This document shows, one piece after another, positions 15,706 to 30,741 of a stretch of DNA of 64,000 nucleotides; position 1 is the first letter of the stretch, and each line of letters begins with the position of its first letter. Both the position numbers and the translations under genes were made by a program. The stretch lies in NCBI RefSeq assembly GCF_038397745.1, contig NZ_CP151636.1:496001-560000 (forward strand), given 5' to 3'. The notes below the pieces were generated by a model. That model was not told the origin of the DNA. It saw nothing but the letters and a program-made list of their open reading frames with translations, and did not search any database. The stretch comes from Microbacterium sp. LWH11-1.2. GTDB lineage: Bacteria; Actinomycetota; Actinomycetes; Actinomycetales; Microbacteriaceae.

Positions 15706-15854
15706 GAGAATCGCTCCGTTCACCTGCCTGGCGTCGGCCAGAGGGTCTTACCCGCGTGCTATTCTGAATGCTACTCTTACCGGCTTCGAGCCGGTGTCGT
15801 GAAATGCATCGGGCTCCTGTCGCCCGCAGCTGAAATCGTGAGGGGGTCTGGCGT

Positions 15855-16040
15855 ATGGGCCGTGGCCGTCAGAAGGCGAAGCACACAAAGATCGCCCGCG
15901 AACTCAAGGCGTACAGTCCGTCGGTGAACTACTCCGCGCTCGAGCGCGAGCTGGGTCATCCGACAGACGAAGACGCCTACGTCGACAAGTGGGCCGACGA
16001 GTACGCAGACGAAGACGAGGACGAGCTGGAAAAGGCCTGA
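15855..16040 (+). CDS. DUF3073 small conserved actinobacterial protein
   Basis: A 61-residue protein beginning MGRGRQKAKHTKIARELKAYSP, the invariant start of DUF3073. The N-terminal half is basic and the C-terminal half is very acidic (DEDEDELEKA). The function is unknown; the family is restricted to Actinobacteria and usually highly expressed, often near purine genes. GAGGGGG lies 9 bases upstream, and the AT-richer stretch at 15765-15780 (TATTCT) may be its -10. A terminator hairpin follows. Confidence 0.92.
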   Translation: MGRGRQKAKHTKIARELKAYSPSVNYSALERELGHPTDEDAYVDKWADEYADEDEDELEKA

Positions 16041-16059
16041 CCGCCTGCTCCGTCGTTCC

Positions 16060-16082
16060 GCCCCCGTGCGACCCACGGGGGC
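16060..16082 (+). terminator. Terminator after DUF3073
   Basis: A 9-bp stem GCCCCCGTG / CACGGGGGC with a 5-base loop, 20 bases past the stop codon. It lies between convergent genes and could serve both. Confidence 0.8.
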
Positions 16083-16104
16083 TTCGTCGTGCCCGCGGAT
16101 CGGG

Positions 16105-16440
16105 TCAGGACGCGCTCGACCGCTGATCTTCCAGCGACCAGACCTGCTCGATCGGCAGGAACCCCTCTTCGCCGTCGGGTCCGTGGAAGCCGTCGACGAA
16201 TCGACCGATATCGGCCTGCCATGCGGCATTCGCCGGCGCGGCGTCGACGATGCGCATCGCCCGGTCGAAGTCGTCGCACTCGACCAGGTGGAACAGGTTC
16301 CTGCCCGACCGCCAGATGATCCAGTCATGGATGCCGGCTTCGGCGAACAGGTCGCGCAGGTCGTCGGGGATCCGTGCGTGATGCGATCGGTACTGGTCGA
16401 CAGCTCCGTCCACGATGACCGAGTGCAGGGCGATACGCAT
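16105..16440 (-). CDS. L-rhamnose mutarotase family protein
   Basis: A 111-residue RhaM-type protein (usual length 104-110) that interconverts anomers of L-rhamnose or a similar sugar. Family blocks are RIALHSVIVDGAVDQYRSHHARIPDDLRDLFAEAGIHDWIIWRSGRNLFHLVECDDF, with the catalytic-type Tyr and His residues near the start and the Trp-rich centre, and the C-terminal W-x-x-D. A strong AGGAGGAA site is present. No rhamnose catabolic genes adjoin it, so the true sugar is open. Confidence 0.87.
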   Translation of the reverse strand: MRIALHSVIVDGAVDQYRSHHARIPDDLRDLFAEAGIHDWIIWRSGRNLFHLVECDDFDRAMRIVDAAPANAAWQADIGRFVDGFHGPDGEEGFLPIEQVWSLEDQRSSAS

Positions 16441-16499
16441 GTTTCCTCCTAGCCGGTGACCCCCGGCGACAGTGTGACGTGACCTGCGAGAATCATTTC

Positions 16500-17300
16500 A
16501 TGGCCCGTGTCGTCGCTCTCTACCGTCACCCGATCAAGGGGCTCACCCCCGAATCCCTCGAATCGCTCACGGTGCAGGCGGACGGCAGGGTCGCGGGCGA
16601 CCGGGTGCTCGCATTCCGCTTCGCCGATGCGGTCACCCCGGAGGACGACGGCGGGCTCGACTACTGGCCCAAGTCGAAGGGGCTCGCCCTGCAGGACTTC
16701 CCGGCACTGGCCGCGCTGCGCACGAGCTACGACGACGCGTCACGGCGCCTGCGGATCGAACACGACGGCCGCGTGCTCGCCGAGGCGGGGATCGACGACG
16801 CCGGACGGGCCGAACTCGTGGCGGCGGTCACCGACTTCACCCTCTCGACGCGGGAAGGTCGCCGGCTGCAGCGTCCCGGTCGCCTCCCCCTCGCCCTCGT
16901 CGGCGACGGGGAGACGTCGAGGTTCCAGGATCGCGCGCGCGGGTACGTGTCGGTGCACAGCCGCGGCAGCACCCTGGCCCTGAGCGACGCGCTCGACCTT
17001 CCCGTCGATGACCGCCGCTTCCGTTCCAACATCGTCATCGACGGCGTCGCCCCGTGGTCGGAACTCGACTGGGAGGGCGAGGTGCGCATCGGCACCGTCG
17101 CGTTCCGGACGGCCGGTCCCATCGTGCGCTGCCTGGCGACGCACGCGAACCCCGACACGGGCGTGCGCGATGCCAAGGTGCTCACCACCCTCACCGGAGC
17201 GCTCGCACAGGGCGAGCCGACGCTCGGGCGCCTCCTGCTCCCCGCCGACGAGACCGCGGAGGGCATCGTGCGCCTCGGCGACGAGGTGCTGACCGCCTGA
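16500..17300 (+). CDS. MOSC domain protein
   Basis: A 266-residue protein with an N-terminal MOSC beta-barrel (VVALYRHPIKGLTPESLESL) and a MOSC domain (RFRSNIVIDGVAPWSELDWEGEVRIGTV, then RCLATHANPDTG). The Cys in RCLATH corresponds to the conserved Cys seen in molybdenum-cofactor sulfurase-type and YiiM-like proteins, so it probably handles sulfur or the molybdenum cofactor. ATG 16500 fits homologues better than the in-frame GTG at 16479. There is no Shine-Dalgarno; GAGAAT six bases upstream may be the -10 of a leaderless mRNA. Confidence 0.85.
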   Translation: MARVVALYRHPIKGLTPESLESLTVQADGRVAGDRVLAFRFADAVTPEDDGGLDYWPKSKGLALQDFPALAALRTSYDDASRRLRIEHDGRVLAEAGIDDAGRAELVAAVTDFTLSTREGRRLQRPGRLPLALVGDGETSRFQDRARGYVSVHSRGSTLALSDALDLPVDDRRFRSNIVIDGVAPWSELDWEGEVRIGTVAFRTAGPIVRCLATHANPDTGVRDAKVLTTLTGALAQGEPTLGRLLLPADETAEGIVRLGDEVLTA

Positions 17301-17410
17301 GGCACTGTCGGGTCATCCGCTCGGAATGCCCCGCTCTCCTCGCTCGTCAAGCAATGTCAGCGCTATCCTCATGCGCGCGGCAATCGGCATGAACAGTTAC
17401 GTTCGCGGGC

Positions 17411-17439
17411 TTGTGAACGCAAACATTCTGATGTTTAAT
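17411..17439 (+). promoter_or_regulatory. Promoter and LacI-type operator of the sugar ABC operon
   Basis: The probable -35 is TTGTGA (17411-17416) and the -10 is TTTAAT (17434-17439), with a 17-bp spacer. The 14-mer TGTGAACGCAAACA (17412-17425; complement TGTTTGCGTTCACA) overlaps the -35 and differs by one base from the site before the GH35/LacI genes. A small dyad, AAACAT-TCTG-ATGTTT, sits in the spacer. Repressor binding here would block RNA polymerase. Confidence 0.75.
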
Positions 17440-17518
17440 GTCCATGATCAGTACCGCGGTGAAGCGACCCGGCATCCCGGCGATCCTGTAAGAACCTGAC
17501 CTCGAAGAGGAGAACAGC

Positions 17519-18832
17519 ATGGCTTCCACATCCCCTGCCACACGGGCGGCCGCGATCATCGCGGTCGGCGCCGTGTCCGCCTTCGGCCTCGCGGCCTGCT
17601 CCTCGGGCGACGCCCCTGCCGGAGACGGTGGCGGTGAGCCGATCACGATCGAGTACATCCACCGTCTCCCCGACGGCGAGGGGATGACCAGCGTCGCCGA
17701 GATCGTCGACCGCTGGAACGCCGAGCACCCCGACATCCAGGTCGAGCCGACCAAGTTCGACGGCAAGGCCGCGGATCTCGTCCTCAAGCTCGAGACCGAC
17801 ATCAAGGCGAAGAACGGCCCGTGCCTCGCCCAGGTCGGGTACGCCGAGGTTCCGCAGCTCTACGTGAAGGGCATGCTGGAGGACGTCGCGTCCGAGGCGA
17901 AGAAGTACGAGGACGACTTCTCGGCCGGGGCGTTCAGCGGCATGAGGGTCGGCGACGCCGTCGTCGGCCTTCCGACGGACACCGGGCCCCTCGTGTACTT
18001 CTACAACGAGACGGCGTTCGCGGCTCTCGGCGTCGAGGCACCCGCGACGCTCGACGACCTCGCAGCCACGTCGGCGACCGCTGCCGCCGCCGGCAAGTTC
18101 GCGACCGCCTTCACGCCCGACGAGGCCCAGTACTGGCTCTCGGCGCAGGCCGCCGCCGCGGGCGACACCTGGTTCTCCACCGAGGGCGACGAGTGGCGGG
18201 TGGATGCCGAGGGCAAGGGCGCTGAGCGCGTCGCCGCCTTCTGGCAGGGCCTGCTCGACGACAAGCAGACCCTCGCCACCGAGCGCTGGGGCGAGGGCTT
18301 CACGGCGGCGCTCAACGACGGCAGCCTGATCGGGCACGTCGGTGCGGCCTGGGAGGCCGGCTTCCTGCTCGACTCCCTCGACGGCACCCCCGCCGAGGGA
18401 CAGTGGCGCGTCGCACAGCTGCCGGACTTCGGTGCCGGCGCTCAGAGCGGCCCCGACGGAGGCTCCGGCATCGGAGTGATGAAGGGCTGCGAGCACCCCG
18501 CCGAGGCGATGGAGTTCAACGACTGGTTCAACACCCAGGTGGACGACCTGTCTTCGCAGGGTCTCGTCGTCGCCGCCAAGGGCAGCGTGAAGACCCCCGA
18601 GAAGATGCTGCGCCAATTCGGCGGACAGGACGTCCTCGCCGAGCTGGGCACGGCCACGGGGAACCTGAATCCCGACTTCCCCTACGCTCCCGGATTCTCG
18701 ACACTGTCGAAGATGAACGAGACCGCGGCGGCAGCCGTGGCCGGCACAGCCACCGTCGCCGACATCTTCACGACAGCACAGGAGACGGCTGTCGCGTCGC
18801 TGAAGGACCTCGGTCTGCCGGTCGCCGAGTAG
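17519..18832 (+). CDS. Sugar ABC transporter substrate-binding lipoprotein
   Basis: A 437-residue extracellular solute-binding protein of the large sugar-binding (family 1, UgpB/MalE-like) type. A signal peptide ends in the lipobox LAAC, with lipidated Cys27. The mature part starts with ITIEYIHRLPDGEGM and has the typical VGYAEVPQLYVKGMLEDV and HVGAAWEAGFLLDSL segments. GAGGAGAAC precedes the ATG. It leads an operon with two permeases but no ATPase, so it would use a shared MsiK-like ATPase. A hairpin after the gene probably boosts its level over the permeases. The shared operator links it to GH101 and GH35, so galacto-N-biose-type sugars are a reasonable guess. Confidence 0.92.
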   Translation: MASTSPATRAAAIIAVGAVSAFGLAACSSGDAPAGDGGGEPITIEYIHRLPDGEGMTSVAEIVDRWNAEHPDIQVEPTKFDGKAADLVLKLETDIKAKNGPCLAQVGYAEVPQLYVKGMLEDVASEAKKYEDDFSAGAFSGMRVGDAVVGLPTDTGPLVYFYNETAFAALGVEAPATLDDLAATSATAAAAGKFATAFTPDEAQYWLSAQAAAAGDTWFSTEGDEWRVDAEGKGAERVAAFWQGLLDDKQTLATERWGEGFTAALNDGSLIGHVGAAWEAGFLLDSLDGTPAEGQWRVAQLPDFGAGAQSGPDGGSGIGVMKGCEHPAEAMEFNDWFNTQVDDLSSQGLVVAAKGSVKTPEKMLRQFGGQDVLAELGTATGNLNPDFPYAPGFSTLSKMNETAAAAVAGTATVADIFTTAQETAVASLKDLGLPVAE

Positions 18833-18860
18833 GCGCGCGGCAGAGCATCATCGGATGATC

Positions 18861-18898
18861 GGCGGCGGGGCACACGAACGGTCGTGCACCCCGCCGCC
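18861..18898 (+). terminator. Intercistronic hairpin between binding protein and permease genes
   Basis: GGCGGCGGGG (18861-18870) pairs perfectly with CCCCGCCGCC (18889-18898), with an inner CACGA/TCGTG stem. It lies inside the operon in an 89-base gap. Such structures partly stop transcription or protect the upstream mRNA, so more binding protein than permease is made. Confidence 0.75.
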
Positions 18899-18921
18899 GT
18901 CACCAATCGAGAGGCAGCACA

Positions 18922-19899
18922 ATGGTCATAGCGACCGAGGATCGGCGCATGTCACCGGCATCCGTTCCCCCGACCCGTCCTGAGCCCGACCGCCGACGCG
19001 GCCGTGGAACCCGTCGGGAGGGCCTCACGGGCTGGCTGTTCATGGCCCCCTTCGCCGTCCTGTTCGCGGTGGTCTTCCTGGTGCCGATCATCGTGTCGGT
19101 GCGCTCGTCCTTCTTCGCGCAGGTCCCGTCGGGTGGCGGACTGTACGGCGGCGGCGAGCTGGTCGATGCCTTCGTCGGCCTGGACAACTTCGCGGCTGCG
19201 GCGACCAACGGCGCGTTCTGGGCCGGCATGGGCCGCGTGGTCCTGTACGCGGGGCTGCAGATCCCGGTGATGATCATCGTCGCACTCGCGCTCGCCCTCC
19301 TGCTCGACTCGTACATCCTCCGTCGCCCGGCGCTCTTCCGCCTCGCGTTCTTCCTCCCGTATGCGGTGCCCGGCATCATCGCCGCGATGATGTGGCTGTA
19401 TCTGTACACGCCGGAGGTTTCGCCGCTGCTCCCCTACCTGCCCGAGGGCACCGACTTCATGTCGCCGCAGACGATCCTCTTCTCGATGGCGAACATGACG
19501 ACATGGACCTACACCGGCTACAACATGCTCATCTTCCTGTCGGCGTTGCAGGCTGTGCCTCGTGATCTGTACGAGGCCGCACGCCTCGACGGGGCGTCAG
19601 GATTCCAGGTCGCGATGCGGATCAAGGTGCCGCTGGTGCGCGGCGCGGCGCTCCTCGCGGTCCTGCTCTCGATCATCGGCACGATCCAACTCTTCAACGA
19701 GCCGGTGATCATGGAGGCCTCCAACACGTGGATGGGCAAGGACTTCACTCCGATGATGCTCACCTACAACACGATGATGGGCGAGATCTCTCCGTCGGGC
19801 AGCGGGCCCGCATCCGCGTACTCCCTCCTCATGGCCCTGATCGCGGGCGTGCTCGCGATCGTCTACGCGCTGCTGCAGCGCCGGAAGGGGGACTCATGA
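18922..19899 (+). CDS. Sugar ABC transporter permease (MalF-like)
   Basis: A 325-residue membrane protein with six predicted helices; the first is WLFMAPFAVLFAVVFLVPIIV (residues 34-56). The EAA loop that contacts the ATPase is YEAARLDGASGFQVAMRIKVPL. A basic, proline-rich cytoplasmic N-terminus precedes the first helix. It pairs with the next gene, which overlaps its stop codon by four bases (ATGA). An inner ATG at 18949 is also possible, but the first ATG has GAGAGGCAG before it. Confidence 0.92.
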   Translation: MVIATEDRRMSPASVPPTRPEPDRRRGRGTRREGLTGWLFMAPFAVLFAVVFLVPIIVSVRSSFFAQVPSGGGLYGGGELVDAFVGLDNFAAAATNGAFWAGMGRVVLYAGLQIPVMIIVALALALLLDSYILRRPALFRLAFFLPYAVPGIIAAMMWLYLYTPEVSPLLPYLPEGTDFMSPQTILFSMANMTTWTYTGYNMLIFLSALQAVPRDLYEAARLDGASGFQVAMRIKVPLVRGAALLAVLLSIIGTIQLFNEPVIMEASNTWMGKDFTPMMLTYNTMMGEISPSGSGPASAYSLLMALIAGVLAIVYALLQRRKGDS

Positions 19900-20819
19900 C
19901 CACCACTTCCCTCCTGACCACGTTCGACCCGTCCGCGAAGCGGGGCCGCCGCCGCGCGCAGGCCCCCGATGCCCCACCCCCGTCCATGGCGCCGGGACCG
20001 GTCGCTCGGACGTTCGGCATCATCACGCTGGTCATCGCGACGCTGTACTTCCTCGTTCCGGTGTACTGGCTCATCGTCGCCTCGACGAAGAACAACACGG
20101 ATCTGACGTCGACGTTCGGCTTCTGGTTCGCCGAGTGGAACCTGGAGACGAACTACGACAGCCTCATGGGCTGGACGCAGGGGCTCTTCTGGCGCTGGGT
20201 CGGGAACTCGCTCTTCTACTCGGTGAGCGCGGGCATCATCGGCACCCTGTTCGCCGTGATGGCGGGTTACGCGATCGCCAAGTTCGCCTTCCCCGGCAAG
20301 AAGATCGCCGTGGGCGTGATCATGGCCGGCCTCCTGCTGCCGGTGGCGCTGCTCACCGTGCCGCTGTACATCGAGTTCCATGCTCTGGGACTGACGAACA
20401 CGGCGTGGGCGATCATCATCCCGTCCGCGGTCTCACCGTTCGGCGTGTTCCTGGGCATGGTCTACGCCCAGTCATCGGTGCCGACCGAGCTCCTGGAGGC
20501 CGCCCGCATCGACGGCGCCGGCGAAGCGCGGATCTTCTTCACCATCGTGCTGCGACTGCTCGGGCCTGCGATGGTGACGATCTTTCTCTTCATCTTCGTG
20601 GCCACGTGGAACAACTTCCTGCTGCCCCTGATGATGATCTCCAGCGCCGACCTGAAGCCGGTGACGCAGGGCCTGTACGGCATGATGACCTACTTCTCGC
20701 CGGACAAGGGAGCGGTGATGCTCGGCGCCCTGCTGGGTGTGATCCCGCTCATCATCCTGTTCTTCAGCCTGCAGCGCTACTGGCGGTCAGGCCTCGCGGC
20801 CGGCGCCGTCAAGGGCTGA
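19896..20819 (+). CDS. Sugar ABC transporter permease (MalG-like)
   Basis: A 307-residue partner permease with six helices (first at about residues 38-60) and the EAA loop LEAARIDGAGEARIFFTIVLRL. The C-terminus RYWRSGLAAGAVKG is the standard ending of MalG-type subunits. Translation is coupled to the MalF-like gene by an ATGA overlap. The operon ends here, with no ATPase or enzyme gene downstream; the next gene is convergent. Confidence 0.92.
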   Translation: MTTTSLLTTFDPSAKRGRRRAQAPDAPPPSMAPGPVARTFGIITLVIATLYFLVPVYWLIVASTKNNTDLTSTFGFWFAEWNLETNYDSLMGWTQGLFWRWVGNSLFYSVSAGIIGTLFAVMAGYAIAKFAFPGKKIAVGVIMAGLLLPVALLTVPLYIEFHALGLTNTAWAIIIPSAVSPFGVFLGMVYAQSSVPTELLEAARIDGAGEARIFFTIVLRLLGPAMVTIFLFIFVATWNNFLLPLMMISSADLKPVTQGLYGMMTYFSPDKGAVMLGALLGVIPLIILFFSLQRYWRSGLAAGAVKG

Positions 20820-20895
20820 GCGCCGGCGTCGCGTCTCGCGTCTCGGAGCGCGTGTCGGAGCGCGTCTCGCGACACTGTCGGTCAGGTCCTTCGTG

Positions 20896-22272
20896 TCAGG
20901 TGAACATGACGCGGTGGGTGGGGCGGTCGGTGTAGGTGCGGCCGAGGGGGCTGTGCCAGGTGATGGTGCCGTCGCGTTCTTGTCGGGCTGTCCACCGGTG
21001 TGTGTCGGGGATGTCGGGATGTTTGAGGGTGTGGTGGGCGCGGCAGAGGTGGGCGAGGTTGTCGAGCCTGGTCTTGCCGCCTCGGGCGTGGTCGTGGGTG
21101 TGGTCGATGTCGCATCGGTGCACGGGCATGCGGCAGCCGGGGAATCGGCAGTGCTGGTCCCGGGCGCGCAGGAACCTCCGCATCCCCTCCGTCGGGGTGT
21201 ACGTGTCGGTCTGCCGGACCATGCCGTCGGGGTTGAGGAACAGGCGTGACCACCCGGTGTTGCGTCCGGCGAGGTCGCGGGCGATGTCGGGGTGGAGGGG
21301 GCCGTGCCCGTCGAGGTCCGCCGGCCGATCATCCGCCCCGGCGAGCGTGGTCCCGGCGATCGTCACCTGGATGCGGCCCTGGATGTTGTCCAGCCCGTCA
21401 CCATGGACGGCGCTCGGGTCGGCGGTGAGCAGCAGGTCGGCGAGCAGGTCCGCCTGCACCTGATCCCAGGTGCGCGTGTCGGCGGCGACATTCTCGGTCT
21501 CGCAGCCGGCGCCGGTGTCGGTGTCGGGATCCATCGCGAACGTGTCGTCGCTGACGATCACCCTTCCGTCGTCGCGTGCACTCTCGGCATCGTCGCGGGC
21601 ATGCGCACGGTTCCGGATCACCTGCCGGGTCATCTGGCGGAGCCGGTCCGCGATCGCGACAGCGACCCACTCCGGCAGCACCGCCGTCAACAAAGCCAGC
21701 CCGTCGCCGACGGAGCGCACCTTCACGCACCGCTCACCCGCTGCCCGCTTATGCCGGTCCGTGACCGTCTCCCCGACCAGAGCCGCCGCGACCTGCGCCG
21801 CATGCGCCTTCGTCCGCGCCGCGGTCTCCCGTTCGGCGAACACCAGCACCGCCGCCTCGTACAACCCCATCACGTCGGCATCCACCCGCTTGTTCCGGAT
21901 CGCCTCCGCCACGATCGCACTCTCCCGCACGATCTCCCGCACATGCCCCGCACACACCCGGCCCGCGGCGAACGCCGCCCGCACCTCCGGCAGGGACGTC
22001 GACACCACCAGGGCATCCGTGAACGCATACTCCACAGACCCGGTCGGGATCCGAGCGGCAGCGGAGAACTCCGCAACCATCGACCGATAGATCGCATCCC
22101 GATGGAACCCGTTCCCCGCGACATCCGCCTCATGGAACCCGATCTGCTCGACCATCACCTCCATCGCCTCGCACTCCAGCACCGCGATCTGCCGCTTCTT
22201 CTCCACCCACGCCTCCAGCACACGACGACGCTTATCGAGGTCGAGGTGAAGATCCGTCTGCCGCTGTGCCAT
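20896..22272 (-). CDS. DUF222 / HNH endonuclease protein (13E12 family)
   Basis: A 458-residue protein. Residues ~30-330 are DUF222 (the 13E12 repeat-family domain), with VEYAFTDALVVSTSLPEVRAAF and GRVCAGHVREIV. The C-terminus holds an HNH nuclease: CRFPGC, then HRCDIDHTHDHARGGKTRLDNLAHLCRAHHTLKH, with the DH and HH metal residues and two Cys pairs. These genes are multicopy in actinobacteria and many are damage-inducible. Here an SOS-like box sits 11 bases before the ATG. It lies between the ABC operon and GH101, probably as a later insertion, because it shares nothing with the sugar genes. Confidence 0.9.
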   Translation of the reverse strand: MAQRQTDLHLDLDKRRRVLEAWVEKKRQIAVLECEAMEVMVEQIGFHEADVAGNGFHRDAIYRSMVAEFSAAARIPTGSVEYAFTDALVVSTSLPEVRAAFAAGRVCAGHVREIVRESAIVAEAIRNKRVDADVMGLYEAAVLVFAERETAARTKAHAAQVAAALVGETVTDRHKRAAGERCVKVRSVGDGLALLTAVLPEWVAVAIADRLRQMTRQVIRNRAHARDDAESARDDGRVIVSDDTFAMDPDTDTGAGCETENVAADTRTWDQVQADLLADLLLTADPSAVHGDGLDNIQGRIQVTIAGTTLAGADDRPADLDGHGPLHPDIARDLAGRNTGWSRLFLNPDGMVRQTDTYTPTEGMRRFLRARDQHCRFPGCRMPVHRCDIDHTHDHARGGKTRLDNLAHLCRAHHTLKHPDIPDTHRWTARQERDGTITWHSPLGRTYTDRPTHRVMFT

Positions 22273-22282
22273 ACCCCCAGAT

Positions 22283-22298
22283 TAGAACATACATTCGA
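22283..22298 (-). promoter_or_regulatory. LexA/SOS-like box before the DUF222-HNH gene
   Basis: TAGAACATACATTCGA matches the actinobacterial SOS pattern TCGAAC-N4-GTTCGA at 10 of 12 fixed bases. It ends 11 bases upstream of the ATG at 22272, where a bound repressor would cover the promoter. Confidence 0.65.
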
Positions 22299-22343
22299 AT
22301 ATGGCAGTATATTCCGCGGCAGGAATCCTCCCTGGCGATCGCG

Positions 22344-22381
22344 CGAGACGGCCCGGAGGGAACTCCCTCCGGGCCGTCTCG
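22344..22381 (-). terminator. Terminator after GH101
   Basis: A perfect 17-bp stem, CGAGACGGCCCGGAGGG and its complement, has a 4-base loop. It starts 28 bases beyond the GH101 stop and separates it from the downstream DUF222 promoter. Confidence 0.85.
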
Positions 22382-22408
22382 CCGCGCCTCAGCGGCGAAG
22401 CGAACCGC

Positions 22409-25400
22409 TCAGCCGACCCGACGTCGGCGCGTCCACAGCACCCCGCCGAGGAGTATCAGCGCCAGCGCCGACAGGCCGACTGCCGCCCACAGCGCTCCAT
22501 CCGCTCCGGTCTCCGAGAGGCTGCCACCGGCACCCCCGGGTGCGGCCGTCACTGCGAGACCCGTGCGGGCGAGTTCCGCGCCTTCGGCATCCGTCACGAC
22601 GATCGAATGCTGTCCGGCCGGAGTCGCCGCGGGGATCACGACCCGCGCCAGAGCATTCCCGTCCGCGTCGACCGTCACATCGCCCAGCTTCACCGGCTCG
22701 GAGTGCAGCCAGACCTGCACGGCATCGCCGGGCTCGAAGCTGCGCAGCTGCACATCGACGCTGGATCCGCCTCGAACCGTCTCGACAGACACCGTCACCG
22801 TCGCGTCCTTCGCCGGCTTCGCCTTCTTCACCTTCAGCGGCGCACTGGCGACCGGTTCGCCCGAGGCGTCCTTGACGATCACCTCGTGCTTCCCGACTTC
22901 GGTCGCCAGCGGGATGAGCAGCCGACTCGTCAGCGCCCCCTCGCCATCGACCGCGGCATCGGTGATCTTCACCTCGCCGAGCCAGAAGGACACCGCGGAG
23001 CTCGGCTCGAAGCCCGTGAGCTCCGCCCCGACCGTCTCGCCGGCGCGGACCGATGTGGCATCGAGACTCAGCTCCGGATCGGTGACGGGGGTGCATTCGT
23101 CGATGTCGTCGGCCGGACGCTCCTTCGGTGCATGTCCGCTCTGCGGTGCGGCCGTGCCGTAGATCGCGATCTCGGCGACGGCGGAGAACTGCGACCCCGA
23201 GATCGACGACGTCGCGGTCACTCGCACGTACCGGGCCGTCGTCTCCTCGAAGCTCACGTCCTGCCACTCGGCGACGTTCTTCCACTCTCCTGTGGTCACG
23301 GGGGTGAACGTCTGCCCGTCGGCCGAGACGGCGACCTCGTAGCCCTTGATCGGACCGTTCGTGTTCGCCGTCCGGCGCAGGTACGAGATGCCGTCGACCT
23401 GTTCGGCAGCGCCGAGGTCGAACGTCAGCACGTGCGGATAGGCCGTGGCATCGGCGGCCCAGCGGCTGACCCAGAAGGTCCCGGCTTCGCCGTCGAGCAT
23501 GTTCGCCGCCTTGCCGTCTTCGTTCACCGTCTCCTCGGAGTTCGCCGAGGCCGTGATCTGCTCGTTCGGGATCCGCGCCCGCGTCGCGACCGTCGCCTGC
23601 ACCGAGGTCGCGACCGACCGCACGTCGCAGTCGGCGAGGTAGGTCGCCTCGATGCCGATGCCGACCGATGCGCCGGCCGCTTCCGCCGGGGCGGTGATCA
23701 GCCAGGTCGTCTCGACGCTGTCGCCCGCATCGACGGTCTCGAACAGGTTCGAGGAGCCGTCTGCAACCTCGACCGCATACCCCTCCGGCACAGCGAGCTC
23801 CACTCCGATGTTCTCGACGGCGATGTCCTCGCTGTTCGTGAACGTCGAGGTGAACGTCGACTGCCCGCCCGGGCTCAGGACCGCGGCTCCGCCCGAGACC
23901 GTGGCGCACGGCGTGCCGCCCGTCGTCGGTCCGAGGTCCGTCACCGTGAAGTCGTCGAGCACGAAGTCGACCTCCGGGCCGCCGACGCGTTCGAGTCCCA
24001 CCCAGGTGTAGTCGCCGCATCCGACCTTCACGTCCTGGACGAACGACGTCGTCTCCAGAGCCTGGGCGAGATCGGTTCGTCCGAGGGTCGTCGAGGTCGC
24101 CTCGCCGGCGGCGAGGGCATCCGTCCCCGTCACCCAGCGATAGGCCCCGCTCGCTCCGACCTGGTAGTTGAATCCGACACGGTAGGTGTGTCCGGCCTGC
24201 AGCGAGACGAGCGTCGGGTCGGTGCGGTAGACGACGCCGCTGAGCTCCGAGTGCGACAGCAGCGAGTGATCGCCGTGCAGGGTCGAGTCGACCGCGAGAC
24301 CGGCCTGCGCACCACCCGGGGCGAACGGACGCGCGGTGTTGCGCCAGTCGCTGCCCGTGTACGGGTCGTGACGGCGGGAGATGCTGGTGCGGATGCCGCC
24401 CGGATCGCCCGAGTAGACGAACGGACCCCAGCCGGGCTGGTTGCCCTCGAAGTCGCTCGAGTACACCGTGCCTTGCGTCGGCGCCGTCGTGGTGTCGACC
24501 ATGACCCGCGCATTGTCGACGCGGACCTTCGCCTCGCCCGCGGGTGCGGCGATCGAGACGGTCACCTCGCCGGATGCCGGGGCCAGGAACGAGACCGTGC
24601 CGCGCTGGTAATGCTGTCCCGCCTTCGAATCCGGGAGCATGAGGTTGAGCGTCGGAGACAGGTTCCAGGTGCGGGTGATCGCGCCGGCAGGGGTGTCGAC
24701 CGCGACGACGACGTCGCGAGCCGCGGTCTGGTCGATCTGCACCTGCGCCGAGAAGGAGTACCGCTGTCCGGGAGCGAGCCCGGTGACCGTCTGCGAGATC
24801 GACGACGCGGCCGCACCCAGCACGGCGACGTTGTCGCCACGCGACTGGTTCTTCTGCGCGCCGAGGTCGGTGCGCTCGATCGAGACGTCGCCCTGCGGGT
24901 GCCAGCCGTCGAGAGTTCCGGCGTTGAAGCCGGGGTCGTCGAGTCCTGCGTCGTGGTAGTCGATGGGGGCGCGCACGGCTCCGCCCTGCGGCACCACGAC
25001 GTAGGCGGTGTTCTCGTCGCCGCTGAGCGTGAGCTCGCCGTTCATGGCGCTGACGGTCGAGACCTTCTGACGACCCTGGTCGCTCAGCTCGAACACGTCG
25101 AAGGCGGTGTTGCCGCTGAACGCGTCGGTCACCCCGAACGTGTGGGAGCCGCCGGATGCCGAGAAGAAGTACATCTTGTCGGCATCGACCGGCGAACCGG
25201 CGTCGGCGCTCGATTCGAGGGTCTGCCACGGCAGCAGGTAGGAATCGCCGCGGAGGACGGTCACGCCGTCCATGGTGATGACCCTGTCGCCGTCGTCGAT
25301 GGTGATGCCCACGTCATCCGTGAGCGTCGCCGAGGTTCCCGCCTCGTACGTGAGGAGATCGAACTGCTGGATGAACTTCGTCGGGAGGCTCTGCGTCCAG

Positions 25401-27598
25401 ATGTTGCCGATGAAGCCGTCCCAGTTGCGGTTGCCGCTCCACCCCTCGGCATCGATGAGCCGCTGCTGGCCGAGGAGCGCGTCGTCGTTCCAGATGTCCG
25501 CCTGACCGTTCTGGATGAACCGGACCATCGTCGAATTGATGCCCTTGTTCTCCTTGCCGCCGTAGGCGAGATCGTTCGGCCAATGCGCCCAGACGGAGTC
25601 GTCGACGAACTTGTCGCCCCACTCGGTCGCGACCTCGAGGTCCATCGCATGCAGCTCGTCCGCCAGCTCTTCGGCGACCCACCCGTTCGAGTAGTAGACG
25701 TCGATGTACACGCCGCTGAGGCCAGGGACCTCGTCGCGCAGCTGCTGGAAGCGGTCGAGCACGCGTCCGGTGCCGAGGTCGGTCTGCTGGTTGATGTAGT
25801 AGGACTGATCGAGCCAGTTCCACCCGGGCTTGTACGGGGCGGCACCGTCGAGGATCGCCGGATCGAACGAGTTCGCCTGCGGGTAGATCTCGGTCGCGTT
25901 GACGTGCACGCTCATGTCGGCGTTGAGCTTCGCTCCCTCGTCGACCAGGCGGTTGAGGTCGTCGACACCACCGGCGCGCTCATTGGGGTTTCCACCGTAG
26001 TCGGTGTTCGCCGAGTCGTGCCCCTCGCTGCCGAAGCCCTTGTTGAGCACCCACTGGCCGAGGCCGTCGGTCTGATTCGCGATGCGCTTGGTGTTGTCGA
26101 GCGTGAGGTCGAAGTAGTTGGTCGCGGTCGAGGCGAAGTTGAACGGGATGCGACTGACCACGCGCTCCGCGACCCGGTCGGCGCCGAGGCGCACGGTGTC
26201 GACCTCGCGATAGCGGATGCCGGCGTCCTGCCAGTCGACGGCGGCGTCGCCGTTGCGGTCGGACGTGAGGAACACGGTCACCTTCGGCAGCTCGTACGTC
26301 GTCACCCGCGCATCGACGGCGGTCGTCGGGTGGATCAGCCAGGCGCTCGATCCGATCTCGGCCGTGCGTCCGCCGGCGGTCGTCACGCGAGTGAGAAGGC
26401 GGGTGTTCCACGACGGCGTCCCGCCCGACGCCTGCGTCGTCGCGTTCGTGAGCACACTGCCGACGAGTGCGCCGTCGCCGAGGAAGGCGAAGGCCGCCCC
26501 CTTCTGACCGGTGGCGGTCGCGTCGTTCACCACGATGTGCTCATCGGCGTTCGTCGTGCTGTTCGGATCGATGACCGTGCGGTCGAGGACGGAGCCGGGA
26601 TCGTTCGTGGAGAGGAAGGCGTTGTCCGGCAGGCCCAGCGTGTTCACCGCTGCCCCGCCGCCGACCTCAGTCACCTCGAACTCGACGGCGCCCTCCGCCG
26701 TGACACGGATGCTGCTGCTCACCGTCACGTCGATGCCCGTGAGCGTCGACACGTAGTCGACTCCGGTCGCGGTGGCCGTCGAGGTGGTCGACGCGGCGTA
26801 GGAGGTGCCGTCGACCGACCAGGTGTTCGCCGACGCGCGCTGGCCGTCGAACGCGGCTCCGCCGACCAGGTAGCCCGTGATCTGCGGGAAGCCCTTCGCG
26901 ACGGTGGCGGTGGTGCCGCCGTTCGCGATCTCGACCGTCTCGATGTCGACGGGGACCTCGGGCTCCTCGGGCTCTTCGACGATGGGAGGGAGCTCCTCGT
27001 CCGAGAGCACCTCGATCTCGCCGGCACCGGCGCCGTTGCCCGCCATGTCCTGCGCGTCGATGATCAGCAGCGCGACGTAACGGCCGTCCTTCGCGGTGTC
27101 GAGCGTGATGCGCTGCTTCTCGTCGTTCGCCGTCGGCGCGTGCAGCGTCGCCGTGGCGGCCGCGTCGCCCCAGCCGCCCTCCGCGGGCGAGGTCGCAGCC
27201 GTCTGCGCGTCGTCGGTGACGTACACCTCGACGGTCTTCGCATCGATCCGCTGGCCGACCTTGCCCGAGTAGTCGAGCGCCTTCACCGAGAGCGACCGCT
27301 GCAGATCGATCGAGACCCAGTGCGGGAAGGGAGCCAGCTCCGCGTAGCGGGAGACCCACTGCGTCGCGAAGTCACCGTCGAAGGCGGCGAGCGCCGTGCC
27401 GTCGAGCGCGGGCGGCGCGGGGTAGGGATCCGCAGCGCTCGACACCCCGGTCAGGCGATAGTCGGTCTTGGGCACGGGAACCAGATCGGCGGCCAGCGCC
27501 GGCGACGCCTGCGCGGCGACACCGCCGAAGACGAGCGCGGTGACCAGGAGGGAGCTGAGGGTTCGTGCAGTGCGGGGACGTCGGGGACTCTTCGACAC
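22409..27598 (-). CDS. Endo-alpha-N-acetylgalactosaminidase (GH101), cell-surface anchored
   Basis: A 1,729-residue exported enzyme that should release Gal-beta-1,3-GalNAc from Ser/Thr O-glycans. Order: signal peptide (cleavage near ASPALA-AD, residue ~37); galactose-binding domain (~45-185); GH101 core (~230-900) with YIDVYY, where Asp633 is the likely nucleophile, and TEWG, where Glu659 is the likely acid/base; beta domain (~1040-1230); NEW3-type domain (~1240-1340); F5/8 type C (CBM32-like) domain (~1345-1490); two Ig-like repeats (GETVGAELTGFEP, GSSVDVQLRSFEP); sortase-type LSETG, a membrane helix and RRRR. The GTG at 27598 after GAGAGG gives a proper signal peptide; the frame stays open to 27694 without one. 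Two LacI-type sites flank the promoter. Confidence 0.9.
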   Translation of the reverse strand: MSKSPRRPRTARTLSSLLVTALVFGGVAAQASPALAADLVPVPKTDYRLTGVSSAADPYPAPPALDGTALAAFDGDFATQWVSRYAELAPFPHWVSIDLQRSLSVKALDYSGKVGQRIDAKTVEVYVTDDAQTAATSPAEGGWGDAAATATLHAPTANDEKQRITLDTAKDGRYVALLIIDAQDMAGNGAGAGEIEVLSDEELPPIVEEPEEPEVPVDIETVEIANGGTTATVAKGFPQITGYLVGGAAFDGQRASANTWSVDGTSYAASTTSTATATGVDYVSTLTGIDVTVSSSIRVTAEGAVEFEVTEVGGGAAVNTLGLPDNAFLSTNDPGSVLDRTVIDPNSTTNADEHIVVNDATATGQKGAAFAFLGDGALVGSVLTNATTQASGGTPSWNTRLLTRVTTAGGRTAEIGSSAWLIHPTTAVDARVTTYELPKVTVFLTSDRNGDAAVDWQDAGIRYREVDTVRLGADRVAERVVSRIPFNFASTATNYFDLTLDNTKRIANQTDGLGQWVLNKGFGSEGHDSANTDYGGNPNERAGGVDDLNRLVDEGAKLNADMSVHVNATEIYPQANSFDPAILDGAAPYKPGWNWLDQSYYINQQTDLGTGRVLDRFQQLRDEVPGLSGVYIDVYYSNGWVAEELADELHAMDLEVATEWGDKFVDDSVWAHWPNDLAYGGKENKGINSTMVRFIQNGQADIWNDDALLGQQRLIDAEGWSGNRNWDGFIGNIWTQSLPTKFIQQFDLLTYEAGTSATLTDDVGITIDDGDRVITMDGVTVLRGDSYLLPWQTLESSADAGSPVDADKMYFFSASGGSHTFGVTDAFSGNTAFDVFELSDQGRQKVSTVSAMNGELTLSGDENTAYVVVPQGGAVRAPIDYHDAGLDDPGFNAGTLDGWHPQGDVSIERTDLGAQKNQSRGDNVAVLGAAASSISQTVTGLAPGQRYSFSAQVQIDQTAARDVVVAVDTPAGAITRTWNLSPTLNLMLPDSKAGQHYQRGTVSFLAPASGEVTVSIAAPAGEAKVRVDNARVMVDTTTAPTQGTVYSSDFEGNQPGWGPFVYSGDPGGIRTSISRRHDPYTGSDWRNTARPFAPGGAQAGLAVDSTLHGDHSLLSHSELSGVVYRTDPTLVSLQAGHTYRVGFNYQVGASGAYRWVTGTDALAAGEATSTTLGRTDLAQALETTSFVQDVKVGCGDYTWVGLERVGGPEVDFVLDDFTVTDLGPTTGGTPCATVSGGAAVLSPGGQSTFTSTFTNSEDIAVENIGVELAVPEGYAVEVADGSSNLFETVDAGDSVETTWLITAPAEAAGASVGIGIEATYLADCDVRSVATSVQATVATRARIPNEQITASANSEETVNEDGKAANMLDGEAGTFWVSRWAADATAYPHVLTFDLGAAEQVDGISYLRRTANTNGPIKGYEVAVSADGQTFTPVTTGEWKNVAEWQDVSFEETTARYVRVTATSSISGSQFSAVAEIAIYGTAAPQSGHAPKERPADDIDECTPVTDPELSLDATSVRAGETVGAELTGFEPSSAVSFWLGEVKITDAAVDGEGALTSRLLIPLATEVGKHEVIVKDASGEPVASAPLKVKKAKPAKDATVTVSVETVRGGSSVDVQLRSFEPGDAVQVWLHSEPVKLGDVTVDADGNALARVVIPAATPAGQHSIVVTDAEGAELARTGLAVTAAPGGAGGSLSETGADGALWAAVGLSALALILLGGVLWTRRRRVG

Positions 27599-27679
27599 GT
27601 GGTGCCTCTCGAACGTAGCGTCGCACGGGAGTCGAGACGCCCCGATGCGCCGCAGATGGAAGCCATCAGCAGAAGCTGA

Positions 27680-27748
27680 TGTTTGCGCTATCACCCTACA
27701 GTCGCTCTATTCGCATGACAAGGATTCTTCTTGATATCTGCGCAAACA
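27680..27748 (-). promoter_or_regulatory. GH101 promoter flanked by two LacI-type operators
   Basis: Read on the minus strand, the -35 is TTGTCA (27716-27721) and the -10 is TAGGGT (27693-27698), 17 bp apart. One operator-like site, TGTTTGCGCTATCA, covers 27680-27693 at the transcript start. A second, TGTTTGCGCAGATA, covers 27735-27748 upstream of the -35. The centres are 55 bp apart, about five helical turns, which would allow repression by looping. Confidence 0.72.
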
Positions 27749-27771
27749 TCCTCCATGTCGCGACCGGACAC

Positions 27772-27808
27772 GCAGAGCCGCCCGGCCTTCACGGCCGAGC
27801 GGCTCTGC
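27772..27808 (-). terminator. Terminator after the GH35 gene
   Basis: Stem GCAGAGCCG (27772-27780) / CGGCTCTGC (27800-27808), with an inner CGGCC/GGCCG stem and a short loop. It lies 13 bases past the GH35 stop codon. Confidence 0.8.
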
Positions 27809-27820
27809 GACCATCCCCGG

Positions 27821-29614
27821 TCAGGACCCCACGAACTCCTCGGTGTCGCCGAAGACCGGCTCCTCGCAGATCTCGACGGTCGCGCCGACACCGTCGAGAT
27901 CCAGGACGCGGATCTCGTTGCGCCCGCACCGCCAGAGCGGGGCGGGCGCATAGAGGGTCTGCTGCGGGCCCACCTTCCAGTACCGGCCGAGCAGGAAGCC
28001 GTTCAACCACACCATCCCCTTGCCGCCGCCGGGGAAGGCGAGCCAGGCGTCCAGCGCCTCGTCGACGTCGATGTGCGCGACGGCGAGCCCGTCGCGCACG
28101 CCGAACGCGTTCTCGGCATCCGGCGCCTCCTGCGGCACGACACGGTGCGTCCAGGCGTTGACGAAGCGGCGGCCGATCATCACGCCCCGCATGACCCCCT
28201 TGCCCTCGCCGGTGTACGGGCCGTAGTTGATGCGGCCGAGGCTCTCGACGACGATCGTGAGGAGCCCCGTGCGCGCGGAACCGGGAAGGACCATCGAGGT
28301 CGTGCCGTCGCGCTCCAGCGTGCCGATCCGCTCATCGTCGAGGAAGACGGTCGCGCGGTCATGCAGACCCTCGATCGTGAGCGTGGCGCCCTCGGGGAAC
28401 GACACCGAGGTCTCGTACGCGACGAGCCCGTCCTCCGCGCCGAGCTGCTCGAACGTCTGCGGACGAGGGGTCGGCGCGCCCACGGGAGGTGCCGCGCGGA
28501 CGACGTCGAGCAGCGATGCCTGCGGCACCAGGGCGACGGATGCCGCCGCCTGCCGCCGCGGCGGGAGCGGGATCGCCGGCAGCTCTTCTCGATGGAAGGG
28601 GGCGAAGAGCTCACGCAGCGCGTGGAACTTGGCGCCGAGCGACCCGTCCTCGCCGATCGGGGCATCGGAGTCGTAGCTGGTCGTCGTGGGCTGGAGCACA
28701 CGGTCGTGGTTGGCCCCGTTCCAGAGACCGAAGTTCGTGCCGCCGTGCGCCATGTAGAGGCTCACCGAGCCTCCGGCCTCGAGAAGCTCGCCGAGGGTGC
28801 CGCCCATGCTCGCGACGGAGCGCACATGGTGCCGCTCCCCCCAGTGGTCGAACCAGCCGCCCCACAGCTCGCTGCACATGAGCGCCTCGCCGTCCCGGCG
28901 CAGCTTCAGGGCCTCGCCGACACCGGTGCCGAAGGTGAAGGTGGTCATCGCGCCGGGGATGCTGCCGTGGGCGACCATGTCGCCCGTGATCCCGTCGGCC
29001 GTCGTGAGCATCTCGACCATCCCGCGCGACCGGAGCCCGTCGCGGAGGTGGGCGAGATACTCCTCGTCGCTCCCGAAGGATCCGTACTCGTTCTCCACCT
29101 GCACCGCGACGATGGGCCCGCCGTGCGCCGCCTGCAGCGGCACGAGTCGCGGGATGAGCTCGTCGTACCAGGCGTCGACGGCCGCGAGGAAGGCGGGATC
29201 GCTGGTGCGCAGTGCGGTGACGCGTCCGGAGAGCCAGTGCGGGATGCCGCCGTTGGACCACTCGGCGCAGATGTAGGGACTCGGCCGGATGAAGACATCG
29301 AGCCCGACCTCGCCCGCGATCCGGACGAATCGCTCGACATCACGCCAGTCGTCGAAACGGCGGTCGCCCTCGACCCGCTCGTGGAAGTTCCATGCCACGT
29401 ACGTGTCGACCGTGTTCGCCCCCATCGCCGCGAGGCGGCGGAGCCGGTCCTCCCACTGGTCAGGGTGCACGCGGAAATAGTGGATCGCGCCGGAGAGGAT
29501 GCGGTGCTTCTCTCCGTGACGGAGGATCTCGCCGTCACGCCAGGTCAGAGCGGGCGACCGCGCGTCGAGCGCGGCGGGGGCGACGCCGGCAGGCGATGCG
29601 AGAAGGTCAGACAT
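27821..29614 (-). CDS. Beta-galactosidase, glycoside hydrolase family 35
   Basis: A 597-residue GH35 enzyme. The barrel begins with LSGAIHYFRVHPDQWEDRLRRLAAMGANTVDTYVAWNFHE. The acid/base is Glu176 in VQVENEYGS, and the nucleophile is Glu249 in CSELWGGWFDHWG. After the barrel come beta domains with NYGPYTGEGKG and WLNGFLLGRYWKVGPQQTLY. There is no signal peptide, so it acts in the cytoplasm, probably removing beta-1,3-linked galactose from an imported disaccharide. The ATG follows GGGAG. A LacI-type operator lies in its promoter just after a GATAAT -10. It is divergent from the LacI gene and downstream of nothing else, so it is a single-gene unit. Confidence 0.92.
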   Translation of the reverse strand: MSDLLASPAGVAPAALDARSPALTWRDGEILRHGEKHRILSGAIHYFRVHPDQWEDRLRRLAAMGANTVDTYVAWNFHERVEGDRRFDDWRDVERFVRIAGEVGLDVFIRPSPYICAEWSNGGIPHWLSGRVTALRTSDPAFLAAVDAWYDELIPRLVPLQAAHGGPIVAVQVENEYGSFGSDEEYLAHLRDGLRSRGMVEMLTTADGITGDMVAHGSIPGAMTTFTFGTGVGEALKLRRDGEALMCSELWGGWFDHWGERHHVRSVASMGGTLGELLEAGGSVSLYMAHGGTNFGLWNGANHDRVLQPTTTSYDSDAPIGEDGSLGAKFHALRELFAPFHREELPAIPLPPRRQAAASVALVPQASLLDVVRAAPPVGAPTPRPQTFEQLGAEDGLVAYETSVSFPEGATLTIEGLHDRATVFLDDERIGTLERDGTTSMVLPGSARTGLLTIVVESLGRINYGPYTGEGKGVMRGVMIGRRFVNAWTHRVVPQEAPDAENAFGVRDGLAVAHIDVDEALDAWLAFPGGGKGMVWLNGFLLGRYWKVGPQQTLYAPAPLWRCGRNEIRVLDLDGVGATVEICEEPVFGDTEEFVGS

Positions 29615-29630
29615 GGGGCTCCCAAGAAAG

Positions 29631-29650
29631 TGTTTGCGCTCACATTATCG
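29631..29650. promoter_or_regulatory. GH35 promoter -10 and LacI-type operator
   Basis: On the minus strand, GATAAT (29645-29650) is the probable -10 of the GH35 gene. Directly after it is the 14-mer TGTGAGCGCAAACA (29631-29644; complement TGTTTGCGCTCACA), covering the transcript start. The same 14-mer with one change is in the ABC operon promoter. Confidence 0.72.
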
Positions 29651-29694
29651 CATGCACACGCTCATTGCTCCCCGGAAACCAGCCGTTTGATCGC

Positions 29695-29700
29695 TATCAT
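29695..29700 (+). promoter_or_regulatory. -10 box TATCAT for leaderless lacI-type gene
   Basis: TATCAT lies 6 bases before the ATG at 29707 and no ribosome site is present, which fits a leaderless mRNA. Confidence 0.6.
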
Positions 29701-29706
29701 TGCTCC

Positions 29707-30741
29707 ATGTCCCCACGCCGCCCTCGAGAGGATCGAGCCCCGAGCCAGGTCGACGTGGCGCGCCTCGCCGGCGTCTCGACGCAGACCGTCTCCCGCGTCA
29801 TGTCCGCACAGGACAACGTCCGCCCCGACACCGCGCGACGGGTTCTCGCGGCCGTCGAGGAGCTGGGCTACCGCGTGCACGCGGCCGCCGCGTCGCTCGC
29901 CTCCGGCCGCTCACGGATCCTCGGCGTCATCGTCGTCTCCACCGACCGGTACTCCTCGGCAGCCCTCGGCGTCGGCATCGAGCAGGCGGCCGCGGCGAAC
30001 GGATACACGGTCACGACCGCAGCGGTTCCGGACCACGCATCGACCGAGTCGTTCCTCGAGGCCTTCGACCGCCTGGAGCGGCAGGGGGCGGAGGGGATCA
30101 TCCTCGGCATCCCGGTCGAACTCGACAGCCCGGCCATGAGAGCGCGAACAGAGCGCACGCCGTCGACGCGCAGCGAGCGCGCCTCTCTCGACGAGGACGC
30201 ACCCCTCGCCGTCGACCAGCGCGCGATCGCCCGCCTCGCCGTGGAGCACCTTCTCGATCTCGGTCACTCCACGGTCTGGCACGTCTCGGGCGACGACTAC
30301 TGGGCCGAGACGCAGCAGCGCAGCGAGGCGTGGGAGCAGACGCTCCGCGACCGCGGCATCGTGCCGCCTCCGGTGATCCCCGCCGACTGGACCCCCGAGT
30401 CGGGATACCGCGCCGGCCGCACGATCGCGGCGATCCCCGAGGTGACCGCTGTCTTCGTCAGCAGCGATGAGATGGCGTTCGGCCTGATCCGCGCCCTGCA
30501 CGAGGCCGGGCGCAGCGTACCGGAGGACGTCTCGGTCGTGAGCGTCGACGACATCGCCCTCGCAGCCTACGCGTCGCCGGCGCTCACGACGGTGCGTCAG
30601 CCGTTCGAGGCGATGGGGCGCGCGGCGGCACTCCGGGTGATCGGGCAGATCGAGGGCCATGAGGCCGTCGGCGACGTGCCGTCGACCGATCCGGAGCTCA
30701 TCGTGCGCTCCTCGACCGCGCCGCCGAGATCGGCGCGCTGA
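29707..30741 (+). CDS. LacI family regulator of the glycan locus
   Basis: A 344-residue LacI repressor. The DNA-binding head is VDVARLAGVSTQTVSRVMSAQDNVRPDTARRVLAAVEELGYRVHAAAASLASG (residues ~14-66), followed by a periplasmic-binding-protein-like sugar domain (ILGVIVVSTDRYSS to about residue 335) with the dimer-side phrase VSVVSVDDIALAAYASPALTTVRQPFE. It is divergent from GH35 and close to GH101, and the shared TGTTTGCG sites are its likely targets. The ligand is probably a galactose- or GalNAc-containing sugar. Its mRNA appears leaderless. Confidence 0.92.
   Translation: MSPRRPREDRAPSQVDVARLAGVSTQTVSRVMSAQDNVRPDTARRVLAAVEELGYRVHAAAASLASGRSRILGVIVVSTDRYSSAALGVGIEQAAAANGYTVTTAAVPDHASTESFLEAFDRLERQGAEGIILGIPVELDSPAMRARTERTPSTRSERASLDEDAPLAVDQRAIARLAVEHLLDLGHSTVWHVSGDDYWAETQQRSEAWEQTLRDRGIVPPPVIPADWTPESGYRAGRTIAAIPEVTAVFVSSDEMAFGLIRALHEAGRSVPEDVSVVSVDDIALAAYASPALTTVRQPFEAMGRAAALRVIGQIEGHEAVGDVPSTDPELIVRSSTAPPRSAR

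Follow-up and report, generated by a model that had tools for sequence, protein, structure and literature searches.

A probable core-1 O-glycan scavenging regulon in Microbacterium, with predicted LacI-type operators at its importer, GH101 and GH35 genes

Introduction

Import of the core-1 disaccharide of mucin (Gal-beta-1,3-GalNAc, or galacto-N-biose) is described for gut bifidobacteria and lactobacilli (extracts of PMC8106489, PMC5583593 and PMC6109692; the papers cited below are likewise used in extract). Our search of the open-access literature found no description of such a system in Microbacterium, and the extract of PMC9120202 names the genus once, in a count of Actinobacteria. This article concerns a stretch of 64,000 nucleotides from Microbacterium sp. 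LWH11-1.2 (contig NZ_CP151636.1, positions 496,001 to 560,000), called here the window. Between its positions 17,411 and 30,741 lie an ATP-binding cassette (ABC) operon with an extracellular solute-binding lipoprotein (SBP), a glycoside hydrolase (GH) of family 101, a GH35 beta-galactosidase and a LacI-family regulator. This cluster is very probably a self-contained regulon for scavenging core-1 O-glycans. An original prediction, made from the bare sequence of the window, had proposed such a regulon joined by a shared LacI-type site, and the proposal is supported by conserved sites, by co-occurrence of the genes and by their families, from which binding of the regulator would follow.

How would such a regulon work? 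At the cell surface, GH101 would cut the disaccharide off the serine or threonine residues of glycoproteins. A lipoprotein of the GL-BP type, together with two permeases and an ATPase supplied from elsewhere, would import it, and the cytoplasmic GH35 would hydrolyse galacto-N-biose to galactose and GalNAc. The divergently encoded LacI-family protein, most likely a repressor, would bind pseudo-palindromic sites (of the TGTTTGC-GYTCACA type) placed over the -35, or where the -10 ends, of three promoters and beside lacI itself, and would release them when the disaccharide or one of its products accumulates. In this scheme we infer binding and repression, what the inducer is, which linkage GH35 cleaves, how the products are used and that an ATPase is supplied from outside.

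Four sites confined to one cluster

The four sites named in the original prediction are present at their coordinates. Predicted operator O1 (TGTTTGCGTTCACA, 17412..17425, minus strand) overlaps the predicted -35 element of the ABC operon. O2 (TGTTTGCGCTATCA, 27680..27693, plus strand) is the GH101 site nearer to the promoter and lies where the predicted -10 ends, and O3 (TGTTTGCGCAGATA, 27735..27748, minus strand) lies 55 bp upstream of O2, with one half-site only conserved. O4 (TGTTTGCGCTCACA, 29631..29644, plus strand) likewise meets the end of a predicted -10, that of GH35, and lies between this gene and lacI.

The window holds 4 copies of the 8-mer TGTTTGCG, where 0.55 would be expected, and this number was reached in 1 of 100 shuffles. 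A search of the entire genome (4,223,098 bases) for the pattern TGTTTGCGNNNNNA gives 4 matches, every one of them within these 12.3 kb; as the reversed control pattern has 5 matches genome-wide, it is the clustering, and not the number of matches, that serves as evidence. Of the fuller form TGTTTGCGYTCACA the genome has 2 exact copies, both in the cluster; no match has a single mismatch, and 12 have two. Of these 12, 2 again fall in the cluster, namely the site of GH101 at 27680 and a near-site within lacI at 30137, and the 27735 site has three mismatches to the fuller form. A motif equally common elsewhere in the genome would have spoken against the regulon, and the exact matches of both TGTTTGCGNNNNNA and TGTTTGCGYTCACA are all in the cluster. 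Clustering of the 8-mer by chance is rejected on the shuffles, the genome-wide counts and the persistence of the sites at the same genes in relatives. The near-site inside lacI (window 30137-30150, TGTTCGCGCTCTCA) is a copy of TGTTTGCGNNNNCA with one mismatch, either an auxiliary operator or a chance occurrence.

The promoters were predicted by eye. That of the ABC operon (17411..17439, plus strand) consists of TTGTGA, a 17-nt spacer and TTTAAT; these elements are largely conserved in 38 stacked relatives, in which the O1-type site lies over the -35 TTGTGA, followed by 17 bases and TTTAAT. For GH101 (27693..27721, minus strand; TTGTCA, 17-nt spacer, TAGGGT), 29 stacked rows show the TA..GT of the -10 well conserved and the -35 partly so, with O2 at the -10 end. 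The predicted extended -10 of GH35 (TGCGATAAT, 29644..29652, minus strand), which O4 meets, is conserved in 41 of 55 rows (those with full flanks). A generic sigma-70 scan gave no promoter at any of the three places, and the promoter-like elements were judged from relatives stacked on the site. For the claim that each site lies on or next to a plausible promoter, the conserved promoter-like elements that touch the sites speak in favour, though the generic scan found none. The layout of the predicted sites on these elements is that of a repressor. The spacing of O2-type and O3-type sites is 55 or 56 bases in all 25 close GH101 loci with two sites, a constancy that would suit looping or cooperative binding.

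Conservation across Microbacterium and beyond

In a survey of 366 Microbacterium genomes, GH101 was found in 46, the LacI orthologue (E 1e-100 or better) in 58 and the binding protein (E 1e-60 or better) in 44. The LacI orthologue is present in 43 of the 46 GH101 genomes (Fisher p = 2e-39) and in 40 of the 44 importer genomes (p = 1e-34), both values being uncorrected for kinship. The three GH101 genomes without it are G074, with a GH101 match of only 36 bits, and G293 and G299, which are 77 and 76% complete (G and L numbers are our handles for genomes and fetched loci).

Regions of up to 20 kb were fetched around 45 GH101 genes and 20 LacI genes. Sites were counted in rows with an identity of 60% or more and a coverage above one half, the window and its species being among them, in intervals of 250 bases upstream and 30 inside the gene; these were 400 and 200 for divergent GH101 genes and 60 and 30 (90 bases) for permease 1. 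Two of the purF intervals were empty and a few other intervals short, with the gene near the locus end. The 8-mer stands at SBP in 38/38 loci, at GH35 in 55/55 and at close GH101 genes in 29/29, with two sites in 25 of the latter, so that the search for conserved sites at the same genes of related genomes, suggested as a check on the regulon, proved positive. It also stands at 12 of 14 divergent GH101 genes (in the wider interval), whose proteins are about 37-44% identical to that of the window. The reversed pattern occurs at none of these four sets of genes, and the 8-mer itself is absent from the comparison genes, purF (0/27), MFS (0/28) and permease 1 (0/38 of the 90-base intervals). All fetched regions together (1,287,373 bases) hold 178 copies of the motif and 4 of the control. 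Among the 80 importer loci from named organisms across Actinomycetota, treated below, a site lies upstream of the importer in 22 of the 22 with at least 70% identity versus 1 of the 58 others, and the reversed pattern in 0 of 80.

The site may be kept where GH101 and the regulator gene lie apart: in five genomes GH101 is far from LacI (G041, G042, G106, G253 and G328), and 3 of the 5 keep the exact 8-mer at GH101. G025 was excluded from this group because its genes lie near the ends of different contigs and may be neighbours. Mycetocola and Agromyces italicus each have a LacI orthologue (68 and 67% identical) with a site just upstream of lacI and another at the importer, LacI and importer being about 14 kb apart on the same contig in A. 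italicus. In the other 9 of the 11 genomes searched, LacI matches either do not exceed 45% identity or are lacking at E 1e-60, and the importers are without the 8-mer. The marks of a local LacI-family regulon are found together: a LacI DNA-binding domain beside pseudo-palindromic sites with a central CG, at co-functional genes and conserved in relatives.

Some loci depart from this pattern. G211, which is without the GL-BP importer, has at 2138-3583 of L045 another ABC binding protein (33% identical), with a site at 3504, at a distance of 86 bases ahead of the aligned start; here the importer may have been exchanged and the switch kept. G324 has the LacI orthologue; GH101, GH35 and the GL-BP importer were not found in the 20 kb around it. 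There, in L090 (7016-9364), a ricin-B-lectin protein carries sites at 7080 and 7135, 55 bases apart, at its start. Its N-terminal part matches no Pfam family, it has a stretch (STDQGETW) that we take to resemble an Asp-box, and it is a candidate for a new enzyme of the same regulon. Genes for GH95 and an alpha-L-fucosidase (L070), or for NAGLU and an alpha-L-fucosidase (L065), adjoin divergent GH101, GH35 and LacI genes, which suggests wider host-glycan clusters in some species. L046 (G074, 8385-19880) holds a weak GH101 relative, ORFs (open reading frames) of ABC-operon size and a partial LacI match of 38% identity, with no motif, and may be a parallel system for another glycan. Near divergent GH101 genes that lack the importer, where some of the ORFs were scanned, an SSF symporter (L064) and purH-like genes (L071, L072) were considered as substitutes and found unconvincing.

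The importer and its sugar

SBP (17519..18832, plus strand; PF01547, with a lipobox LAAC recognized by eye) is 52% identical over 413 aligned positions to the chain of 2z8d, which is GL-BP, and 100% identical to the protein of Microbacterium sp. TPD7012. Its closest matches in the Protein Data Bank are of the 7VFQ/7VFR type, the following match being at 1e-26; 7VFQ is a binding protein of B. infantis in complex with lacto-N-tetraose (PMC12345172). An arginine in the stretch HRLPD (position 49) is invariant in 12 of 12 rows, GL-BP being one of them, and from its place it would correspond to Arg49 of GL-BP. The change of this residue to Trp63 in a beta-1,6-galactobiose binding protein accompanies a change in specificity (PMC8106489), and GL-BP itself prefers galacto-N-biose over lacto-N-biose 8.5-fold (PMC12345172). 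Galacto-N-biose and its type-1 relatives are thus well supported by sequence as the class of ligand, and galacto-N-biose is favoured among them because GH101 belongs to the regulon. The possibility that the ABC protein binds an unrelated sugar, which would have told against the regulon, does not agree with this identity and the conserved arginine, from which the ligand is deduced.

The operon continues with two permeases of family PF00528, the first at 18922..19899 (plus strand) and the second at 19896..20819 (plus strand; match found on a longer ORF), the ATG at 19896 overlapping the stop of the first. No ATPase gene is seen in the ABC operon, and no search was aimed at one elsewhere; a shared ATPase from another place in the genome would therefore be needed.

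The enzymes and the regulator

GH101 (22409..27598, minus strand, 1729 aa, start taken as the GTG at 27598) is an endo-alpha-N-acetylgalactosaminidase by its catalytic domain (PF12905, 351.6 bits against a cut-off of 25), with companion domains and F5/8-type stretches. Its motifs WNWLDQ (593), YIDVYYS (631) and ATEWGD (657), which presumably hold the catalytic residues, are intact and align with 3ecq. The C-terminus has LSETG at 1694, a hydrophobic stretch and a basic tail, scoring 14.1 bits with the LPXTG anchor model, just below its cut-off of 15.9; the enzyme is probably secreted and sortase-anchored. A plus-strand ORF over the same stretch (22301-27679) was rejected as a shadow frame with no Pfam match.

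GH35 (27821..29614, minus strand) belongs to its family by PF01301 (334.7 bits), and its best match of known structure is 4mad (E 4e-148), with which its active-site stretches align closely. Domain and match place it nearest to the beta-1,3-specific members of the BgaC/GnbG kind, of which we take 4mad to be one; 4mad and 4e8c are presumably BgaC of Bacillus circulans and Streptococcus pneumoniae. No signal peptide was seen by eye, and the enzyme is probably cytoplasmic; its linkage specificity would be for Gal-beta-1,3-GalNAc. Divergent from it, the LacI-family regulator (29707..30741, plus strand, 344 aa) has domains PF00356 and PF13377 (on a longer ORF). Between the ABC operon and GH101 lies a DUF222 gene (window 20896-22272), which recurs in 2 of 45 GH101-centred relatives (L041 and L042) and is not counted in the unit.

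Phosphorylase or hydrolase

In the bifidobacterial pathway for galacto-N-biose and lacto-N-biose (GNB/LNB), the disaccharide is split by a phosphorylase of family GH112. The original prediction saw no such enzyme, and this was confirmed: PF09508 has no match in the window's own genome or in any of the 366 Microbacterium genomes. As a control, the same search detected GH112 in all 5 genomes whose importer is linked to it and in none of 9 further genomes (8 GH35-linked, 1 with neither). The system is accordingly not a GNB/LNB pathway by GH112.

The importer loci compared across Actinomycetota are the best 80 of 107 confirmed stretches, an enzyme being counted as beside the importer when its tblastn match was E 1e-10 or better in the fetched locus (at most 10 kb on each side, less at contig ends). 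GH112 is beside the importer in 47, GH35 in 27, neither in 6 and both in none; the matches in L127 and L131 are truncated, and the GH35 of L117 and L121 lies at a distance of 7-8 kb. The GH112 form is found in Bifidobacterium, Actinomyces, Trueperella, Mobiluncus, Winkia, Tessaracoccus and Arthrobacter echini, and the GH35 form in Microbacterium, Mycetocola, Nocardiopsis, Propioniciclava, Microterricola and Intrasporangium calvum. With none of the importers beside both enzymes, the Microbacterium system is thus a hydrolytic variant of the bifidobacterial pathway, with its own LacI-type regulator.

A tree of the binding proteins (79 rows, L125 being left out for a stop in its translation) divides the GH35-linked rows between two distinct parts, one holding 5 of them alongside 5 GH112-linked rows and the other 22 alongside 4. 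More than one switch between GH112 and GH35 is therefore likely, with several forks weakly supported; the changes of label on the tree overstate the switches, as they include the six rows with neither enzyme, some of them on short contigs. GH35 proteins outside the Microbacteriaceae group, mostly 42-53% identical to that of the window, may be independent recruits. The locus L134 of Intrasporangium calvum unites GH35, GH101 and a GL-BP-type importer with no motif, its genome having no LacI match at E 1e-60, and is perhaps an independently wired version.

What becomes of the GalNAc? AgaS-type catabolism was rejected as the downstream route: 137 of the 366 genomes have some AgaS match, none of them over the cut-off. 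The match in the window's own genome reaches 33 bits against a cut-off of 529.2, in a 616-aa frame that would suit a GlmS-type protein. Near-full matches occur only in G056 (447 bits) and G097 (478 bits), neither of which is among the 46 GH101 genomes. Somewhat better than even, in our estimate, are the chances of a broader picture, in which the GL-BP importer is a modular gateway of Actinomycetota, paired with GH112 or GH35 as mutually exclusive enzymes and swapped more than once. The LacI repressor of Microbacteriaceae would follow its targets there, to unlike GH101 subtypes and in single cases to another importer or a lectin enzyme, and the cells would use mainly the galactose, or else take an undescribed route for GalNAc.

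Alternative readings

Several observations weigh against a self-contained core-1 regulon. The structure type closest to SBP was solved with lacto-N-tetraose, so that a ligand longer than a disaccharide is possible; the lack of any AgaS match over the cut-off leaves GalNAc use unexplained, and the generic promoter scan was silent. The site counts come from related species and are not independent. Four of the 44 importer genomes are without this LacI (importer identity 36% in one and 64-68% in three), and 16 of the 46 GH101 genomes are without this importer, two of these being only 76-77% complete. The divergent GH101 genes of G041 and G042 have no exact site, and L044 (G106) holds three more 8-mers elsewhere in its 20 kb, which makes the site at its GH101 less telling. 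In G317 (L089) the LacI orthologue (82%) has no site in its 20 kb and the nearby GH35 is only 42% identical; the regulator may be an orphan there, or the regulon may have decayed. A site also precedes the importer of L131, from an uncultured Actinomyces that has GH112, and in Nocardiopsis (L179, G370) a near-perfect motif (TGTTTGCGTAAACA, 2400-2413) lies beside two LacI paralogues of about 44% identity. Finally, the recognition helix QTVSRV is common to paralogues in other actinobacteria.

The most serious rival, which we consider rather unlikely, is that the regulon serves primarily lacto-N-biose, lacto-N-tetraose-like sugars or other beta-1,3-galactosides, GH101 being a later add-on under the same switch. 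It would account for the 15 of 58 LacI genomes without GH101, 10 of which keep GH35, the importer and both sites, and 3 more of which (G040, G113 and G235) keep GH35 and LacI with a site. Against it stand the 8.5-fold preference of GL-BP for galacto-N-biose (PMC12345172), the two sites at GH101 in 25 of 29 close loci, and the presence of the site at genes for GH101 proteins of no more than 37-44% identity (in 12 of 14 loci and also in L062). We hold scavenging of core 1 to be the better account.

Might the sites serve another LacI-family paralogue or a wider regulator, the adjacent LacI controlling GH35 only? Comparison of recognition helices did not separate orthologues from paralogues, and the paralogue pair of Nocardiopsis adjoins a near-perfect copy, so that the motif is not exclusive to this LacI and another regulon may use a like site there. 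With neither helix nor motif exclusive, it is adjacency and co-occurrence that tie this LacI to the sites. This explanation is nevertheless improbable: the genome has no other exact motif match, and the importer site goes with the LacI orthologue, both being present in Mycetocola and Agromyces and neither in the 9 other genomes (orthologue threshold 45% identity). Slightly less probable again is that the protein activates one or several of the promoters. O3, upstream of the predicted GH101 -35, is where activators can bind, but O1 covers a -35 and O2 and O4 meet a -10, positions typical of repression, and LacI-family proteins mostly repress. A repressor of the core-1 regulon is thus the role we prefer.

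Relation to known systems and significance

Two described pathways each resemble part of this system. With the bifidobacterial GNB/LNB system (GL-BP/LnbABC, GH112 LnpA, GH101 EngBF and the ROK regulator NagR) it shares a binding protein at 52% identity, related permeases and a GH101, which in bifidobacteria is extracellular and releases galacto-N-biose (PMC8106489). There the importer goes with GH112 and NagR, and 10 of 11 predicted NagR sites overlap promoter elements (PMC9599254), as do the predicted sites of Microbacterium. The differences are that GH35 takes the place of GH112, of which none was found; that a LacI-family gene rather than a ROK gene is adjacent, with no search for a ROK gene made; and that no kinase or epimerase was found among the part of the window's ORFs that was scanned.

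The gnb system of Lacticaseibacillus casei (PTS-Gnb with the GH35 GnbG) also hydrolyses imported galacto-N-biose by an intracellular GH35 (PMC5583593, PMC6109692). Its importer is a phosphotransferase system (PTS), and GnbG works best on the phosphorylated form (PMC6109692). The Microbacterium cluster has an ABC importer and no PTS, and the sugar would for that reason be expected to enter without a phosphate. The cluster shows no GalNAc-6-P deacetylase or deaminase, and GH101 and a LacI regulator are part of the unit. Beyond these pathways, the closest solved GH35 enzyme is 4mad, presumably a BgaC like those of B. circulans and S. pneumoniae, whose active-site stretches align and whose specificity may be shared. 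Arthrobacter echini (L118) has the same importer type and GH101 in one cluster, but with GH112, no GH35 in the locus, an adjacent DeoR-type gene and none of the motif. As read from its sequence, the Microbacterium system joins the bifidobacterial type of importer to the L. casei kind of enzyme.

What this means is that the same type of importer recurs in a Microbacterium regulon, where both the splitting enzyme and the regulator are of another kind. The exclusion between phosphorylase and hydrolase in 80 importer loci is a clear-cut instance, open to testing, of one enzyme replacing another in a pathway, and the cluster offers a ready set of GH101 and GH35 enzymes together with a predicted sugar-responsive LacI switch. 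Core 1 is a main O-glycan of insects and nematodes too, and if this holds, animal glycoproteins in soil would be a possible natural source of the sugar.

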